Shown here: positions 165 to 48,782 of the stretch, piece after piece
Layout: every line of letters begins with the position of its first letter
How positions within the stretch are numbered: position 1 is the first letter of the stretch
Assembly: GCA_006384855.1 (NCBI GenBank)
Contig: VCJN01000517.1
Span: 124,001 to 188,000, forward strand
DNA: 64,000 nt
Reading direction: 5' to 3'
From: Tetraselmis striata
Taxonomy: Eukaryota; Chlorophyta; Chlorodendrophyceae; Chlorodendrales; Chlorodendraceae
Notes under the pieces: generated by a model
Database searches by the model: none
The model's input: only the letters and a program-made list of their open reading frames with translations
What the model was told of the DNA's origin: nothing
Made by a program: the position numbers and the translations under genes

Positions 165-2150
165 GCCCACGGTGACTCTCCCTCTGAATGGCCCAAGCCG
201 TTCCACGATTTTGTCACCGCTAATCCGTTCGCGGTACTCACCCCTCTAGATGACCCACCTGTAGACGGCGGGCCCTCGGGAGGGGGGGGATCCCTAGACA
301 CCGGCGCCGACCACTTTATCCAGGCAATATGGTCGGCGGCGCGTGGGGTAGGGGCTGTTACCAAGCCCAGGCGTCGTGGCCTAGGGCCGCCGCTCCAACG
401 GTCTATCCTAGGTGCGATTAATCGTCGGCGCATGGCCTTTATGGCGTGCCGGGGGACTAGGGGCCCTCGGGATGCCGCTCTAGCGTCGGCACATTATGCT
501 GCTGCACGGCATAGGGTCCGGACACTAGTACGTAATAACCGCCGCCGCCAGAGGGAGCGGGCCGTGCTAAAAGCGGTTCAGGATTTTAAGAAGGGTGGTG
601 GGAGACGGGAGTTCTGGAAGTGGGCGCGCTCTCTCCGTAAGGGGCAGGGTTCATTCGAGGGCGCGAACGACCAGCCAGTACGCGATCCGGTATCGGGGGT
701 ACTTCATACCGAGCCGGGCGAAATCAATGCGTGCTGGGCGCGGCACTATCGGGAGCTGCTGCGTGACCCCCACCCCCTAGCACAACGGGTTGCGATATAC
801 CGTGCGGCGTGGGAACACCGACACGGTACATCCCCACCCATTGCCCCCGCACTAAACGGGATTAATGCGCATATAACATGGGAGGAACTAGTCAAGGCTC
901 TTAGGCGTTTAAAAAATAATAAGGCCCAGGGGCAGGATGGGATCACTGCAGAGGCTTTAAAATTGGCGATATACGCCTCGAATAGCCATTTTGGCAAGGC
1001 ATTGCTGGCCTTAATTAACGGGATATGGACTAAGAACTATATCCCCCAGCAGTGGCGTAGCTCGGCCATAGTATCGGTGCCCAAGAAAGGCGACGCGACC
1101 GTTATGGACAATTATAGGGGTATTTCGATTATGGGTGCCGCTATGAAACTCCTTATGACCATCATTTCCCAACGCTTGCAAGACGTCTGCCTAGCTAAAG
1201 GGATAATCCGCCGTTGGCAAGCGGGTTTTATGCGGAATGAGGAGGGCCCCATGCAAGTCGCCAGCTTGTTCGATATCGCGGCTCGTCGCCAAGCGGCAGG
1301 TCTACCCACGTACGCGGGTTTTATTGACTTTAGGAAGGCATATGACACCGTACCTCATGAGCTTTTATTCCTAAAACTACAAGCCATAGGAGTTTCGGGT
1401 CATATGCTTACCTTCATTAAAACTTTATACAGGGATAGTATGGTACGGGTCAAGACAGGGGTGGCCCCGGGAACACTATCAGACCCCATACCCATAGAGC
1501 GTGGCCTCCGACAGGGATGCCCCGCTTCCCCCATCCTATTTAACATATTTGTTAACGATATACTCGATGGGGTAGAACATCTAGGATGTGATGTACCAGG
1601 GTGCACTGACACATTAGCGGCAAGGCAACCACTAAGGGTGCCAGGTCAGTTATACGCGGACGACGCTGTTGGTATCACAGGCTCGTTCGATAACCTGCAT
1701 GCCATGTTCGCCCACTTCTCGCAGTGGGCGGAGGATCATTTTATGGGGTTTGGGGTACTTAAGTGTGGGGTGATGGCATTAGGCCGATATTCCGACGAGA
1801 CCGCGTTACGCGAACAAGCTGCCCGATGGCAGCTTGGGGGGGAACGGGTACCGGTTGTAAATGAATATAGGTACTTGGGTACGGTCATTAAGTCGGATTT
1901 AGGTATGCAACACATAGTAGACGACCGGGTTAAGAAGGGTAAACGCGCTATTGAGGCGCTCGATTCGGTATTAGTCGGTGGACGGGACATAATCCCTATT
2001 AATGTGCGTGTGTCGGTTTTTAAAACCTGTGTACTGCCGGTTTTAACTTATGGGTGTGAAGTATGGGGCATGGATAGAACTAGCGGCGCAAATAAATTAC
2101 AAACTGTACTCAATCAGTGCTTGCGTTGCCTCATTGGGGTAGCTAGGTAA
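165..2150 (+). pseudogene. LINE reverse transcriptase (partial ORF)
   Basis: The reading frame is open from 162 with no proper start; the first ATG is at 432. Visible RT blocks in order are the NYRGIS block near 1110, the FIDFRKAYD block (motif A, near 1320–1350), the GLRQGCPASPILFNIF block (motif B, near 1500) and the catalytic YADD (1653–1664). Later come thumb-type residues with the YLGT block near 1870. The frame closes at a TAA (2148–2150), and the protein clearly continues one base over. It would copy the element RNA at a nicked target. The missing N-terminal endonuclease and the frameshift make it inactive. Confidence 0.85.
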
Positions 2151-25400: not shown

Positions 25401-27512
25401 AGCTGGGCACTTTGAGATTTGCAGCTTTCGCTACTGGCCGTGTTGAAGAGGGGGGGGGGGGGGGGGGGGGGGGATCGTCAGTGAGAAGCATCGTCGGGTT
25501 AGTAGGCGCCCGGTCAACTTTCCAGGTCACACGAGTGGGTGGTGCGGAGGTGCGGACCGGGCCGAGAGGGGGGGGGGGGGGGGGGGGGGGGGTGGAAGAG
25601 CACTGGGAAGTAATCACTTTCCATGACAGCAGTAGTGGTAGAGCCCACCACGTTTCCCGAGAGCTTGGCAAAGCGTGAGTACCATCCAAAGCCCGGATTC
25701 ATTGTATGCCGTACAGCGTGATATCATGCCAATATGTATGCCAATATTATGGCAATATGTGCAGGACTGAACCAAGGAGAGCCCCCCCCCCCCCCCCCCC
25801 CCTTTATTCATCTGATTCTAGTCCCTGAGTAGGTGTATCCTATGTGCCTTTGGGCCGCAAGTGAATGGAGCAAAATTCGTCGCCATCCGCTATGCGGACT
25901 GGTGTTATCCCAGGGCTGCTCTCAGTGTGGGCACGTGCCGGACAAGAAACAACAGAGTACGACACCAAACACACCTCTGACAGGGCCCTTCAGCCCAGCA
26001 CCTGTTGGTGTGACAGAACTACTTGCCGAGAGGAGGGTCAAGTTAAAATCATCCCCTCGCCTCCCTCACTTGCCTCGGCGGGAGGCACTACACAGGGGCC
26101 GATAGGTCAAACACAAGGACACAGACACGCGCTCCGTGTCGGGGTTGGTCAAAACAACGCACGACTTCCGGAAGAAAAGCCCGCATCGACACGAAAGTCA
26201 CGCCAGTGCAGAGCAGCATTCGCCTGAATGCAGCAGTCAGAGAAGGCTCACCCTGGCGGCGGCCGGGCGGGGGGGGGGGGGGGGGGGGGGGGGGGGTGAA
26301 GGGGGCAAATGGCACTGCATGACTGCGGCGCTCGACTACTCGTAGAGTTTCGCTCGTCGGGATCGGTCAGCGGGTCGATGGCTAAGGGTTGGGCGCGGGG
26401 GGGGGGGGGGGGGGGGGGGGGGGGCTGGAGCGCGCGGCGAAGGGGGCTACCGTACCTTGACAGAGGTTGCTGCGGTGTTATTTCTGTTGCGACAAGGAGT
26501 GGGCAATGGGCGGCGGGCTGTGGCGGGTTAGGCTGTCAATCCTGTATGTGGCGTGTCGGGGCTGATGCCGGCTATGCCGCATCGCTGGACCGCGAGGGGA
26601 TAGCGCCGATGGCGGTGACGCTGACGTCGATGATGAGTGCGACCCGCGCGCCGGGCGCGGGGCTCGAGCGCGGGTTGGATGCTGGCTCTGGAATGTACCC
26701 GGGTACAGCTTTGACAGTTAGTCGCAGCGCGCAGATGGTATCGATGACAGCGTGGCGGCATTGTCTGCCAAGGGCGGCTGCTAGCCAGCCCGGCAGCTAC
26801 CGCAGCTGTTGGGCGGTTGGGGCCGAACGACCCAGCGTGACAGACCTCAAATGCGCAGCAGGCACCAGTCCGCCCATCGTCCATCGCGTCGAACAATAGT
26901 CACCTATCACCCTGACTTCCCTTCTGTTATCTGGTACGCACCCAAGCGCTACCAACTCCCAGCGTCGGGCCGCAGCATAAGGAACTCGCTGGCGTTCCAG
27001 GGGCCGTTGCTTGCGCCGCCTCGCGCGCCGGTCGTCTCGCGGTTGTCGACGCCGCGAGAGTTCATCCGCCCGCTTGCAGCAGCCCGCCGGCGAGCAACAG
27101 GTGTGCCTCTTCCTTCTGACATTGCCTTAGAAAATTCAAATTCGGGATAAGCATGGGTAATAGCAGCGATTCTGCCTGCTCGTACAGTATGTTGGCTAGT
27201 CAGACCCTGGCTAGCCCTGCTTTGCCAAACACTACACCCGACAGTTACACCACCATCGTCATCAGGTCCTATGACCGATCGGCGGCCCGGCGTTTCCCCT
27301 CCCTCATGCTGGGGCAACGCCTGGCAGCACTAGTAGTTCCACTTAGAGACCCCTATAGATACCGGCTAACTACCCGTATCCCGCAGGAGTACGGGCGAGG
27401 CTGACCGAGGTGTGACCATTCAGTCGCACGGCCCGGACATATAGTCCGGAATTCCGGAACTGTAACCATTCCTTGCTTCTCTGCTTCCTGTTCCTGAGCC
27501 GTCCCTTCATCA
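25401..27512. other. upstream region of the SAGA-like gene; no confident gene
   Basis: It contains G runs at about 25450–25473, 25568–25592, 26270–26296 and 26399–26424 and a C run at about 25784–25802. Open frames here mostly translate these runs as poly-Pro or poly-Gly. A short + frame near 25900 has a CSQCGH zinc-like motif, but no support around it. The last few hundred bases should include the 5' LTR of the copia element; I could not define its left end. Confidence 0.4.
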
Positions 27513-27524
27513 GGTTATGGGCCC
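27513..27524 (+). promoter_or_regulatory. primer-binding site, half-tRNA(iMet) type
   Basis: GGTTATGGGCCC is complementary to the anticodon stem-loop of eukaryotic initiator tRNA-Met. The Drosophila copia element is primed by a cut iMet tRNA with this kind of site. The preceding bases end in ...TCATCA, a plausible LTR end. This fixes the start of the internal region. Confidence 0.6.
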
Positions 27525-27895
27525 TCTCACTTGGTAGACTTCCTCGACAGCATCGAGTGAACTCCACCGACTTCCTTTGCCAACAACAATAAGCGAACCG
27601 ACCTAAAAACATCTCGGAACTAATTGACTTGCCTTCCCCCTAACCTCTTGTTTGGACGCCTACTTCGACACCTTCGCTCGTGTCAGCCCTTTCAACGCTT
27701 TTGACCCCTTTTTGAGCCAATCTTATGTTATCCTCAAGGCGCCCTCTTCGACGTTCCACCCTTTTCAACGCGTCTTCAACCGTTTCAACGATGTCAACCC
27801 TTTCAGCCGGACGCCTTGTAACCCATTTTTTTTACATCAACGTTACCTTGGCGACCTCCGGCGCGTTCTCGTCTGTTCTTCTTGAGGAGAGCACC

Positions 27896-29191
27896 ATGCA
27901 ACGTAGCGACGCAAGCCACAGCGCGCTCCCAAACTTGCGGACCGGGCGAGCATTGAAGATTTCATCACATGGCGCAAGTCTTTCACATCGTGGGCTGCCA
28001 GAAACGGCATGGTTGAGGCGCTGGCCGGGGGCAATGGTTACATGCGTCAAAATCTTCTCTTCGAGTGCGTGGAGGCAACCGTTCAACACAATCCTCTTGC
28101 CACTGCGGAGGTCAATTATTGTATCCCTCTTGACAACGATGTCCTTGCTATCCACAACCACCATGGCGCGGCTGCGTGGGGAGCGGTACTCAAACGGTTT
28201 CAGCGACACAAGCATCACCGCATGAAGACGGTAATGGACGGCGTGCGACGTGTTCAACTCGTGCATGAAAATCTCGGCGCTTACCTTTTTCGCATGGAGA
28301 CTGCGCGCCGTACCTTGCGTACCACCCCGGAGGCGGAGCTTACGGATGGATGACGACTTCATGAATCTATATTTTGTTCCGGGCATCCACGAGCGCTATG
28401 AGAAACTTCGGGACGACTTGGAGGAGCTACAGTCAGACGGCATCCACTGCAAATACGCAGCGCTTCGCGGCAAAGTCATGATCAAGGCTTTTCGTGAGGC
28501 CGCCACGCGTCCGTCGTTGCCACCGCCTGTTGACCTCCCTCGTGCCTATGCTCCCATCATCCCACCACCGTTGGCGATGTCGGCGTCACTCCCTACCCAG
28601 TCCCGCCCCGACGACCGTGAATTCAATCGTTGTGGTCGTGCCCATCACACAGCGCCGTATTGCTGGCAGACCCGGCACATCAATGGCTCCATGCTCCCTG
28701 ATTCCCCGCCGGCGGAGAAACCTGGATCGCTAGCGGTGGCCTTCGCACTCCCGCGGGAGCACGCCCGAACCCCGTCCAGTCCCAGCCGCCGATGTTGCAT
28801 GGCGAGCAGCCCACTGGTGCTGTCGCAAGCATCCCTCCAATCGTGGAGTTGCCTGGCGATAATTTCGTCTGCATGGCTCACGCCCCCGCCAACGATAATT
28901 TCGTCTGAATCGCTCTCCCTTCCCGTCTGCGACGGGTTCGATGCGCCCTCTCCTATCGTTGTCGTGCCTTCTCCTACTGAGCCTCCGCGAGGACGACGTG
29001 GTCACTCCGTCTCAGCTGGCCATGATGGATTCGATGAGCTGCTCGATGTGATGGATAGAACGTGTGCGGGCGGAGAGGGTGCAGAATGTGCCACCTACGC
29101 TGGATGTGGTGACTGTGGTTACCTACATGACACCATGCATGGCCGCGTGGAGTGGCGGCGTTGGTCCGGCTGGGCGCGGCGGTCGACATGA
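27896..29191 (+). pseudogene. copia-type gag, frameshifted
   Basis: ATG at 27896. The frame must shift near 27930 to reach IEDFITWRKSFTSWAARNGM, run to about 28345, and shift again at a small duplication (GGATGGATGACG) to MNLYFVPGIHERYEKLRDDL. The helix-rich body fits copia Gag. Near 28630 a zinc knuckle NRCGRAHHTAPYC keeps the last three ligands (C, H, C), but the first Cys is Phe (TTC). A Pro-rich region follows, ending at a TGA (29189–29191). The next ORF continues in the same frame, so this stop is the only break before the methyltransferase. Confidence 0.65.
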
Positions 29192-29194
29192 CAC

Positions 29195-30240
29195 ATGTGT
29201 TTACCTAGATCTGCCTCACCACTCATCGATTACGCCAATTGCGGGCGTCGCTACTCTCTCTACACTGATGCCCATCTGCTGCCGCCGGTCCACTCTGTCC
29301 GTGTGCCCATTCCTCACTTTCATGGCCTTGATGGCGCGTCACCAGCGTTGGAGCGACCTGCCGTTGACCATCACTCACCGGTCATGGGCCCTGCAACTCC
29401 GGCTGGCTGCGCCGCAGCCATGGACATGTGCGCGCCATCCGCGTTGGCTTTCACAACTGTCGATGCACCCCTCGTGTCCGTCCCGGAGCTTTTGTCCCTT
29501 CAGACAGTGGGCCTGGTGCCCCTTCCTCATGCTTCTGTCATCGACCATTTCCTCGGGCTGTGCTGCGGTGGGACGCTCTGTTTGCTTGACGGCATGCTGG
29601 CGGCGGGTTTTGCAGTCACTAGGGTGACGCTCTGCGAACATAGTCCCGTGCGAAGACGTTGGGCTGCGGACCGCCTTCAGATGTTGTCCGTCGAGTATCC
29701 GACCCAGCTCCGCGAGGACGCCTTTCAGAAGGCGTTCTCCTCCACGCCGCAAGACGTGACCCTAACCATTGATGATGTGCTGGCGAGCATGCCTCCGGTC
29801 ACCCTGGTTGCTGCGGGCCCTTGTTGTGAGCCTTGGTCCAGTGTTGGCTCCGGTCGCGGGTGGGAGGACTTGCGTAGCGGCGTCATGGCAGCCGTCATTC
29901 GCATCTGGTGGATGCGCAGCCTGCCTCAGTCTCCTACTTAATAGAGAATATCCCGGGAGCGCTCAAGTGTCCACAGCTTATCTTCTCCCTTGGCGAGCCT
30001 CTCATCGTCAATGCGTTGGACTATGGTTCATCGGTTGCCTAGCGTACACTCATGTGGACCAACGCCGCTCCTTATAGCTCTCTCATGGACCACTACACCG
30101 CCCAACGTCACTCGGCTCCGCCGCTGGCGCTCGACTACTCGGCGAGTTGTGTGCAGCTCTTGGAGGCTAGCTGCGTCGACCGCAACCTTGCAGTATGGTT
30201 CTTTCGTGCCGTGGCGGCTAATCTTTGCACATCCATGCCA
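29195..30240 (+). pseudogene. C5 cytosine DNA methyltransferase domain inside the retrotransposon
   Basis: Motif I at 29537 (VIDHFLGLCCGGTL), followed by CEHSP. Motif IV at about 29805–29850 (AAGPCCEPWSSVGSGRGWEDLRS) keeps the catalytic Cys, with PCQ changed to CCE. One frameshift near 29935 leads to motif VI (LIENIPGAL, 29938 on) and motif VIII (VNALDYGSSVA, 30007 on), where the expected Gln codon is TAG (30040–30042). After that the frame runs on into the protease. A weak motif X-like helix (QLLEASCVDRNLAVWFF) precedes the protease. The enzyme family transfers methyl from AdoMet to cytosine C5 in DNA. It lies in frame with gag upstream and protease downstream, so it was part of the element polyprotein. 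Confidence 0.75.
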
Positions 30241-30696
30241 TGCGCGGCTCTGCCCGCGTGTGTTGTTCTTCCCAACACCGCACCTCCCAGTCCTCATCTA
30301 TTCCTCCTGGACAGCGGCGCGTCGTGGCACGTCGCTGGGAGGCGTCATCACTTCTATACTTACACGCCACTTGCGTCCTCGGACCGATTTTGCCTCAGCG
30401 GCCTACGCGCCACAGTTTACGGCGTGGGTACCTTACATGTTACTTACACATCTAACACCGGTCAACCGGTCATCTCCGTTTTGCGGAATGTGCTCCACGC
30501 TCCCGGCCTTCTCACCGCCGCCCTTCCGCACGCTGTATGTGGAGTTCCTTTTCAGCCAGAGCGCAGCGTAGTCCACCGGCGCGTTTTTTTACTTTGGCCC
30601 CAGCACTTCCACCATGACGCTCCCTTACTTGTGGCGCGAATGTCGTTGTTAGACGCCGGCACAATGTTGGGCTCTACGCGCTGCACGCCGTCGTGA
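30241..30696 (+). pseudogene. copia-type aspartic protease
   Basis: Active-site motif FLLDSGASWHV at 30298–30330, then the flap and hydrophobic pairs VYGVGTLHV and VLRNVLHAPGL, all typical of copia retropepsins. It continues in the methyltransferase reading frame. It would process the polyprotein; the active Asp is kept. Confidence 0.75.
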
Positions 30697-31250
30697 CCCC
30701 TTCCGCCGACAGGCCCCAAGCTAGTACTAGCCCGCTCTCCTCTCCCATGCCGGTGGCGGCGGCCGCTGTCGGCCGTACTGGCGGCTTTACTGGCTCTCGT
30801 GCCCAAATTGCTCTTCTCCATGCGCGGATGGGTCACACCCATCATGCCGGCATCTTGCAAACCGCCAAATTGGTGCCATGTCTTCCCTATGTCGTCGGTA
30901 TCCCGCCGTTATGCGAGGTTTGCGCACTCGTCAAGTCCACCGTCGCTGCAGTTCCTCGCACCGTCGGCTCACGCTTTGAGCATGAACCGTTCGCCGTGCT
31001 CAACCTTAACATATGGAGACCCATGGCTCCTTCGCTCCACGGTCGCCGTTGGATTATTGGCGCCAACTGTCGGCGCACGAATGTCCACCAGGCGGGCAGT
31101 CTAGTCACGCAGTCCGGTGCCGCAGGTGCAGTAGATCGCTTCTTGGCTTTTGCGCGCAAGGGCTTCACTTTCCGCCAGATTTGCGTCGACCGCGCTGCTG
31201 TGTTCATGTGCTCCTCTCTTGATCACAGTAAAAAAAACAAGTCGCCTATG
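30693..31250 (+). pseudogene. integrase zinc-binding domain and partial core
   Basis: The HHCC GAG-pre-integrase domain is visible (LLHARMGHTHH ... CEVCALVKS). In the core, the first catalytic Asp position reads Asn in LNLNIWRPM, and the second is kept (QICVDRAAVF). Homology fades after about 31250 and no RT follows. The domain is degenerate and truncated. Confidence 0.6.
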
Positions 31251-35750: not shown

Positions 35751-36040
35751 GTATTGTCAAGAGCTAGTCGGTGCGGCATTGTGTCGGTGTAATTTCGCAA
35801 TGTTTATTGTTGAAGTAGCACGGCGTAATGGATACTGCGAGTGAATCCGGGATAACGTGTGCGACGAATGTGCGCGCGCAGCGTTGTGCGGCGGTGTGCG
35901 GCGGTGTGCGGCGGTGTGCACCGATGTGAATATAGTGTGAATATTATATCGGCCGTAGACGATCAGGTCTGGCAGCACCGCCCGTGCTTGTAAATAAGCG
36001 ACAATGGATCTAGTCTCCCGCTAGTCTGTGCACCGCAAGT
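35751..36040. other. A/T-richer spacer with 10-bp repeats
   Basis: Three copies of a GTGTGCGGCG decamer at about 35886–35920. No gene seen. Confidence 0.5.
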
Positions 36041-36830
36041 GCACTCCGCAAGCCTCGCCTCCATCCGCGTCGGAACCGGTAGTAAGTGTTGTTGTGTGCG
36101 CACATCGTGACAACATTACACGGTGGCAATTGCAATTATTAGCGGTGGATAATGTGAAGGCGTTTTCGAAATCGACAGAGAATGAGGCGGTGCTGGCGGA
36201 GTGCATTGGCGGTGCATAGAATAGCGTGTTGCTGGGGTTTTGGCTGCATCGGACGCCGTATTCCCACCCATCCGGCACGGAATGTCCGGTTTTCACACAT
36301 TTGTGTGTTAATAAAGCAGTGTGAATATTACGCGTCTTTTACGCCGGGTGGATGGGCATCCGGCGTCCGATGCACCCCAATTATTTGCAGCACGCTACTC
36401 TACGCACCCCCAACGCACTCCGCAAGCCTCGCCTCCATCCGCGTCGGAACCGGTAGTAAGTGTTGTTGTGTGCGCACATCGTGACAACATTACACGGTGG
36501 CAATTGCAATAAGCGGTGGATAATGTGAAGGCGTTTTCGAAATCGATAGAGAATGAGGCGGTGCTGGCGGAGTGCATTGGCGGTGCGCAGAATAGCGTGT
36601 TGCTGGGGTTTTGGCTGCATCGGACGCCGTATTCCCACCCATCCGGCACGGAGTGTCCGGTTTTCACACATTTGCGTGTGAATATATATATAGTGTGAAT
36701 ATTACGTACGCGTCTTTTACGCTGGGTGGATGGGCATCCGGTGTCCGATGCACCCCGAATCTCACCAACACGCTACTCTACGCACCCCCAACGCACTCCG
36801 CCAGCCCCGCCTCTTTCCGCGCAGGTCCTA
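36041..36830. repeat. tandem foldback repeat, period about 375 bases
   Basis: Two complete copies (starting 36041 and 36415) and the start of a third (36793), spaced 374 and 378 bases and about 95% alike. Within each copy, the block from GCGGAGTGCATTGGCGGTGC is the inverse of the block ending ACGCACTCCGC further right, so each unit can fold into a long imperfect hairpin. Probably a tandemly amplified MITE. Frames through it are not coding. Confidence 0.75.
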
Positions 36831-48082: not shown

Positions 48083-48246
48083 CCCCCCCCCCCCCCCCCC
48101 CCCCCCGGACCCATGCCCCCTCTCTACCCCCGTTTAATCATAACTTGAACTCAGGTCATAGGTCAGAATCTGAACGCAGCATGTTCCGGGTATATACGCA
48201 ACTTTCTGCTCCCATATGTGAACCGCCAGCTGCGTTCCCTGCTGCG

Positions 48247-48452
48247 CGTTGGCGCCCCGCTGCCCCGGCCGCGGCGCGTTGGCGCCCCGCTGCCCCGGCC
48301 GCGGCGCGTTGGCGCCCCGCTGCCCCGGCCGCGGCGCGTTGGCGCCCCGCTGCCCCGGCCGCGGCGCGTTGGCGCCCCGCTGCCCCGGCCGCGGCGCGTT
48401 GGCGCCCTGCTGCCCCGGCCGCGGCGCGTTGGCGCCCCGCTGCCCCGGCCGC
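48247..48452. repeat. 30-bp minisatellite, about seven copies
   Basis: Near-perfect head-to-tail units with one C-to-T variant (near 48407). Frames through it translate as APRCPGRGAL-type repeats and are not genes. There are no spacers, so it is not CRISPR. Confidence 0.95.
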
Positions 48453-48782
48453 GCTAGCAATGGAAATGCGGTTTGTGAAATCGAAGGACATGAGTCGATT
48501 CAATTCTTATCTGCGGTCGAAAATGATATGTTATGATCGTTGATTATAATTAATGAGGTTGCTGGCTGCACTACCCCGCAGATACAACCTGTATCACCAG
48601 TGCAAGATAGGAGCGCATCTTCTGGATAAAGGCCCCCCCCCCCCCCCCCCCCCATGCCTGACTCCAAACTGCCTACATAGTGTCGCCTTGCTGAGTTCTG
48701 GTATACACATACATGCAGGTTGTGCATAAGAAGCCCGAGACATGCCTGTGGTGTGCAGACACAATACATGAGACGAGCAGTG

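Follow-up and report, generated by a model that had tools for sequence, protein, structure and literature searches.

A 64,000-nucleotide stretch of the Tetraselmis striata genome (contig VCJN01000517.1, positions 124,001 to 188,000; hereafter the window) holds a decayed copy of a Copia retrotransposon lineage that encodes a C5-cytosine DNA methyltransferase (DNMT) within its polyprotein. Because intact copies in the same genome keep gag, the DNMT and pol in a single frame between near-identical long terminal repeats (LTRs), the enzyme belongs to the element and does not stem from a gene of the host into which parts of a Copia had inserted. On balance we favour the view that this conserved, DNMT3-like enzyme is packaged with the RNA and methylates the complementary DNA (cDNA) of the element to the element's benefit.

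Intact relatives carry the methyltransferase on the Gag side of the protease

An earlier reading of the window made from its letters (the sequence-only reading) had proposed that a copia retrotransposon captured the enzyme, and had named full-length copies in the same genome as a check. A search of the 224-Mb assembly with the window frame yielded 376 candidates, of which 150 were scored, giving 150 matches, all with E ≤ 2e-11. Family A occupies at least 35 places on 35 contigs, and family C at least 28 places on 27 contigs. Five intact elements from four families were read: L031 and L032 (family A), L033 (B), L034 (C) and L035 (D). All of them bear out the proposed capture, with gag, DNMT, protease, integrase, reverse transcriptase (RT) and RNase H in one frame of 2,164, 2,152, 2,162, 2,299 and 2,483 codons, respectively, from stop to stop; the C terminus of L032 is altered relative to L031. 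In each case two direct LTRs surround the coding region, with identities of 98.5, 99.1, 100, 99.4 and 99.7% in the same order (in L035 the 5′ LTR is incomplete, since it runs over the edge of the locus), which suggests recent insertion. Target-site duplications of 5 bp were recognized by eye for L031, L032, L033 and L034, bearing in mind that the last base of the 3′ LTR differs in L031 and that the LTR ends of L034 lie 1–2 nt off the BLAST limits.

The order of domains is the same in all five elements: gag, zinc knuckle, linker, methyltransferase, protease, pre-integrase, integrase, SH3-like domain, RVT_2 reverse transcriptase and RNase H, as established from Pfam plus motifs by eye (RNase H by eye throughout). 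The placement between gag and protease was thus rightly predicted, as was the chlorophyte host (class Chlorodendrophyceae). The DNMT domain (PF00145) scores 27.0–45.8 bits in the five polyproteins, above the cut-off of 22, and the RT is in every case of the RVT_2, that is, Copia, type, far above cut-off. SH3_retrovirus precedes RVT_2 in all five, and Pol_BBD lies upstream of both in four, with no Pfam match in L033. The integrase core rve was matched in three of the five (not in L031 and L032), above cut-off in L035 only, and zf-CCHC was matched in L034, below cut-off in L035 and not at all in the other three. Family E adds at least seven copies with frames of 2,147 codons in which a DNMT and an RVT_2-type RT share one frame; of this family, the methyltransferase alone was read (L098).

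The same layout is found in P0042 (2,106 amino acids), on a 139,593-bp ENA contig, where the domain order is that of the Tetraselmis elements, and part of it in P0014 (5,499-bp contig), where the methyltransferase is followed by the protease. Because of these two sequences, the Gag-side design is probably not private to the Tetraselmis genome. When the protein collection was searched, the family C DNMT matched six Tetraselmis gene models (jgi/Tetstr1, up to 98%) and P0042, and the corresponding region of the family A polyprotein matched none of 4,676 candidates.

The damaged copy in the window

Positions 27190-31222 of the window form a single damaged Copia element of family A (Table 1). Its body is 84–86% identical to intact L031, and it matches the intact 2,164-amino-acid polyprotein P0001 piecewise from residue 18 to 1235. 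Only the 5′ LTR is present; comparison of the intact element with the whole window by blastn and tblastn found no RT, RNase H or 3′ LTR.

The sequence-only reading had placed the methyltransferase at 29195..30240, with motifs I, IV, VI and VIII in order. The enzyme is there and the four motifs follow one another as described, with an X-like motif after them; the domain proper, however, starts about 330 nt further downstream, the segment 29195-29521 being linker. The reading was also correct in that the upstream gag frame is shared and lies one TGA apart (28235-29191 is in the same frame, closed by the TGA), and in that, after a frame change, the domain runs in frame into the protease. An open frame of 249 codons spans 29192-29941. 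The domain is damaged by the frame change near 29900-29940 and, relative to L031, by the absence of 236 nt at 30133/30143, which make up most of the target-recognition region. The window frame alone gives a weak match to Pfam DNA_methylase (17.5 bits, under the 22-bit cut-off).

Table 1. Features of the family A Copia element in the window.
Feature	Position	Strand	Basis or remark
5′ LTR, family A Copia, near complete	27190..27506	+	86% identity to the 324-bp LTR of L031
Leader and gag, with CCHC zinc knuckle (28628-28663) at the end and a frame change	27814..28663	+	blastn to L031, tblastn to P0001, frames, motif position
Poorly conserved linker from zinc knuckle to methyltransferase, in-frame TGA at 29189-29191	28664..29521	+	reading frames
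C5-cytosine DNA methyltransferase domain, decayed	29522..30225	+	alignment to the intact L031 domain; motifs I, IV, VI, VIII and X ordered
Motif I	29546-29572		
Motif IV	29813-29842		
Motif VI	29938-29961		
Motif VIII	30043-30063		
X-like motif	30172-30204		
Copia protease (Pol_BBD, DSGASWHV)	30301..30510	+	PF22936, E 8.3e-10
Protease DSG motif	30304-30333		same frame as motifs VI-X
GAG-pre-integrase region	30795..30938	+	PF13976, 20.2 bits, under the 28.4 cut-off
Integrase start; element truncated	30939..31222	+	blastn and tblastn, intact element against the whole window

Association of the enzyme with the Copia families

For family A, a DNMT of the same family was found upstream of the RT, on the same strand and within 5 kb, at 21 of 24 RT places; for family C, a DNMT lies upstream within 5 kb at 13 of 14, among the matches listed. 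The three family A exceptions all have stops in the RT: C1098 gave no A-type DNMT match, and the distance is 19.6 kb in C2750 and 27 kb in C1824. In C2171, the one exception of family C, the DNMT lies 9.5 kb upstream of the RT. Intact family members lacking the domain, which would speak against a captured gene, were hence not encountered among the RT places of families A and C, since the exceptions are either decayed or have the DNMT 9.5 kb off. Family F is different: its polyprotein (L066, 1,561 codons) is of Copia type, with zinc knuckle and protease, and L066 gave no DNMT match.

We also observed that family F is clustered, with at least 94 rows on at least 48 contigs and up to at least seven per contig (for example C1776, C1230, C440, C776 and C805), unlike the DNMT-bearing families A and C, which occur almost one per contig. 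Such clustering may point to special parts of the chromosomes, for instance centromeres.

A single capture is favoured

In the pol tree, which is unrooted, families A and B are separated from C, D, F and the sequence labelled X (support 100/100), and X joins C and D with a support of 9/43. The methyltransferase tree likewise sets A and B against C, D and X (95.1/93). The congruence of the two trees and the shared position within the polyprotein make a single capture, inherited thereafter along with the element, more likely than several separate captures by Copia. Family F would represent either a loss of the DNMT or a lineage older than the capture. No outside Copia for rooting was found in the viral contigs scanned with the RT or in the genome contigs scanned with P0042, and no solved structure matched the RT.

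In a wider tree the retroelement methyltransferases form one group, which includes the enzyme of a LINE-like element (LINE, long interspersed nuclear element) and two metagenome fragments (95.1/92), the other side consisting of one likely host gene and of prokaryotic, phage and unassigned sequences. The likely host C5-methyltransferase locus, L096, seems to be divided by introns and lies apart from the retroelement group. Viral contigs yielded 28 loci with methyltransferase frames, and the six that were put in the tree are likewise outside this group. The metagenome fragments are P0025, from a contig of 1,076 bp, and P0027, whose contigs reach 2,841 bp, and in both of them D replaces the second P of PPCQ.

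A LINE-like element is a second carrier

The LINE-like element, so called on the basis of its domain set, lies on C2687 (L100:180-4499 plus L099:3-6194) as a single frame of 3,505 codons. L100 contains the start of RVT_1, and L099 the rest of it, followed by PCIF1_WW (E 6e-15), DNA_methylase (35.9 bits) and RNase H; no Pfam match to an endonuclease domain was obtained in the frame. PCIF1 is the cap m6Am methyltransferase. Four places in the genome, C2687 included, match the LINE-like DNMT at 92–100%. Its identity to the Copia enzymes is 31–41% in the trimmed alignment. The approximately unbiased test gave P values of 0.458 for a LINE-like enzyme outside the Copia enzymes (with P0025 and P0027 inside) and of 0.111 for the seven Copia enzymes forming a clade by themselves. 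The window itself holds, at 678-1394 (+), a fragment of an RVT_1-type reverse transcriptase (41 bits) with 30% identity to the LINE-like element of L100.

The domain is conserved and evolves under constraint

Motifs IV (PC), VI (ENV) and VIII (Arg) are kept in the alignments, and the structural models confidently predict the whole fold of a C5-methyltransferase; by these features we assign the domain to this class. The predicted structure is closer to DNMT3 than to DNMT1, DNMT2 or M.HhaI.

To assess selection we used 30 family A loci and 30 loci recovered with the family C query (which may include family D relatives), and copies were kept if the domain was stop-free over at least 90% in one match. 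Pairwise ratios of nonsynonymous to synonymous substitutions (dN/dS) are not independent of one another, as the pairs have branches in common, and leaving out broken copies biases them towards low values. The median was 0.31 (A, 8 of 30 loci) and 0.24 (C-query, 14 of 30) for the methyltransferase, 0.27 (A, n=9) and 0.38 (C-query, n=14, 13 distinct) for the protease region, 0.41 for part of gag in family A (n=8, 7 distinct), and 0.67 (A, n=4) and 0.74 (C-query, n=10) for the linker. With all pairs pooled, pN/pS for A and C was 0.33 and 0.45 for the methyltransferase, 0.29 and 0.43 for the protease, and 0.70 and 0.76 for the linker. The useful signal is the contrast between methyltransferase and linker within the same loci and, as far as these ratios tell, the domain is under purifying selection.

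CpG signatures

Between copies, C-to-T changes were 1.72 times (A) and 2.05 times (C) as frequent at CpG as at other C sites, the corresponding figures for transversions being 0.68 and 0.81. This is a modest hint that the elements are CG-methylated, be it by their own enzyme or by another. The LTR of family C (L034) has 7 CpG against 22.2 expected, with an unremarkable 23 GpC, and that of family D (L035, 397 nt read) has 3 CpG against 24.9 expected, again with unremarkable GpC (36). Such nearly CpG-free LTRs could leave the promoter of the element insensitive to its own methylation.

Proposed role and alternatives

The rationale of our favoured reading is the position of the DNMT, which shares one frame with Gag and precedes the protease. 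Its synthesis would therefore keep pace with that of Gag, and the enzyme would be packed into the virus-like particle together with the RNA, where the protease would release it. Once free, it would methylate the cDNA that the element has just made, probably at CG and either before integration or at about that time, and the new copy would arrive already resembling host chromatin, or marked or protected to the element's advantage.

Several observations weigh against this proposal. In family A, to which the window copy belongs, motif IV reads PCCE for PPCQ, with C for the P before the catalytic Cys, and the activity of the family A enzyme is therefore uncertain. A usable DNMT frame was retained in just 8 of 30 family A and 14 of 30 C-query loci. 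Depletion of CpG in the element bodies, considered as a sign of self-methylation, was not clearly seen (observed/expected 0.75–0.97, compared with 0.80 in the F frame and 0.89 in the window), the LTRs of A and B are not CpG-poor, and a 1.7–2.1-fold excess of CpG transitions does not separate self-methylation from methylation by the host. The abundance of family F means that a Copia can multiply here without a DNMT. Finally, KnitGypsy-Dnmt3 and SymbioLINE-Dnmt gave no methylation in yeast, a result that the authors call inconclusive in the available text (PMC5890265).

The strongest competitor, possible though clearly less probable than marking of the cDNA, is that the enzyme acts in trans or on another substrate, whether host loci, the element's RNA or a slowing of its own copying to spare the host. 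Purifying selection speaks for use and not for a given substrate, family F prospers without the enzyme, and both RNA methylation (for LINEs) and slowed transposition are discussed as options by de Mendoza et al. (PMC5890265, available text). On the other side, the predicted fold is nearest to the DNMT3 group of DNA enzymes, although a shared fold shows no function, and the constant Gag-side placement in five elements and P0042 suggests a role in the particle.

Marking of cDNA can also be set in a broader scheme, which we offer tentatively and think rather unlikely as a whole: that one DNMT3-like module moved between Copia and LINE-like elements in green algae and was kept for self-marking, the LTR promoter being purged of CpG in some families so that the body would be hidden and the promoter left unsilenced.

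We consider it improbable that catalysis has been lost, at least in family A, with the domain being kept as a nucleic-acid-binding extension of Gag. The PCCE of family A, the PPCA of family E (L098) and a motif I that is atypical in the aligned families would fit such a loss. Nevertheless, the catalytic Cys is kept in 8/8 usable A copies and 14/14 C-query copies and the Glu of ENV in 8/8 and 13/14, PPCQ is intact in B, C, D, P0042 and P0014, and the confidently predicted fold is complete. Finally, the window pieces, broken as they are by stops and frame changes, could on their own pass for a host DNMT gene interrupted by or adjoining Copia pieces, a case that the sequence-only reading had itself raised and that is ruled out by the uninterrupted joining of gag, DNMT and pol in the intact elements, and further contradicted by the dispersal of families A and C over the genome and by the intron-split L096 outside the retroelement group.

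Relation to known systems

Retrotransposon-borne DNMTs have already been published; within the open-access literature searched, the Copia design in a chlorophyte is apparently new. Among the titles and opening lines of abstracts listed from open-access PMC, none described a DNMT in a Copia of a chlorophyte. The few published cases that we found, in the text available, are dinoflagellate LINE and DIRS elements and one charophyte Gypsy. The Tetraselmis carrier is Copia, neither Gypsy nor DIRS, and may, as the sequence-only reading suggested, represent a capture of its own. A close parallel is KnitGypsy-Dnmt3 of Klebsormidium nitens, also an alga of the green lineage; here too the polyprotein of an LTR retrotransposon includes a DNMT3-type C5-methyltransferase under purifying selection. 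In that Gypsy element, however, the DNMT is reported in the Pol open reading frame (ORF; PMC5890265, available text), whereas in the chlorophyte Tetraselmis the element is a Copia (RVT_2) and the enzyme lies between zinc knuckle and protease. SymbioDIRS-Dnmt3 of Symbiodinium likewise is a DNMT3-type enzyme borne by a retroelement, but its carrier is a DIRS element with a tyrosine recombinase in a dinoflagellate host; its domains methylate CG in yeast, and methylation of cDNA has been proposed for DIRS (PMC5890265, available text). SymbioLINE-Dnmt, also from Symbiodinium, resembles the element of L099 and L100 as a non-LTR element with a C5-methyltransferase. For the most part its DNMT is encoded by an ORF that precedes the one for the RT (PMC5890265, available text), whereas in L099 the DNMT follows the RT, is itself followed by RNase H and shares a single frame with a PCIF1-like domain.

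A 2025 article (PMC12344493) puts DNMT3 members in 'LTR Copia and DIRS' in one sentence, citing the 2018 paper. The available text of that 2018 paper describes Gypsy, and Symbiodinium Copia without a DNMT (PMC5890265), and the available text of PMC12344493 describes no chlorophyte Copia. Among DNA transposons of algae, proteins combining ParB with an N4/N6 DNA methyltransferase are known from Ectocarpus Sola1-1 and from green and red algal relatives (PMC12477816, available text). They too are algal transposons with an enzyme that may modify their own DNA, but the carrier is a DNA transposon and the enzyme an N4-cytosine or N6-adenine methyltransferase. The catalytic domains of mammalian DNMT3A/3B are 15–20% identical to the Tetraselmis domain. 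They stand in the context of PWWP and ADD domains, unlike the Tetraselmis enzyme, which is part of a Gag-Pol polyprotein.

Cytosine methylation is a tool with which hosts silence transposons, yet these elements carry and conserve it. To the known cases Tetraselmis adds a Copia with a Gag-side enzyme in at least five families and a LINE-like element with a homologous enzyme. Together with the DNMT-less family F, which serves as a natural control within one and the same cell, this makes it possible to test directly, in one unicellular alga, what benefit a methyltransferase brings to a transposon.

Other methyltransferases and repeats

The genome also contains C5-methyltransferase matches in single, apparently intronless frames of 325 codons (six places) and 341 codons (three places, all on C1230). 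They are located on C1230 (three), C776, C1993, C1647, C2337, C355 and C1455, of which C1230 and C776 are rich in family F. The copy that was read, L095 (C1993), is unlike the retroelement enzymes, and these genes are possibly viral or part of another mobile element. Another methyltransferase frame, of 617 codons (L097, C2009:28900-30750), has a bacterial or phage look, and contig C2009 may be a bacterial contaminant. In the window, 36019-36821 and 48196-48483 contain direct repeats with a period of about 370–380 nt (two copies per piece, 89–96%) and a 30-nt minisatellite.
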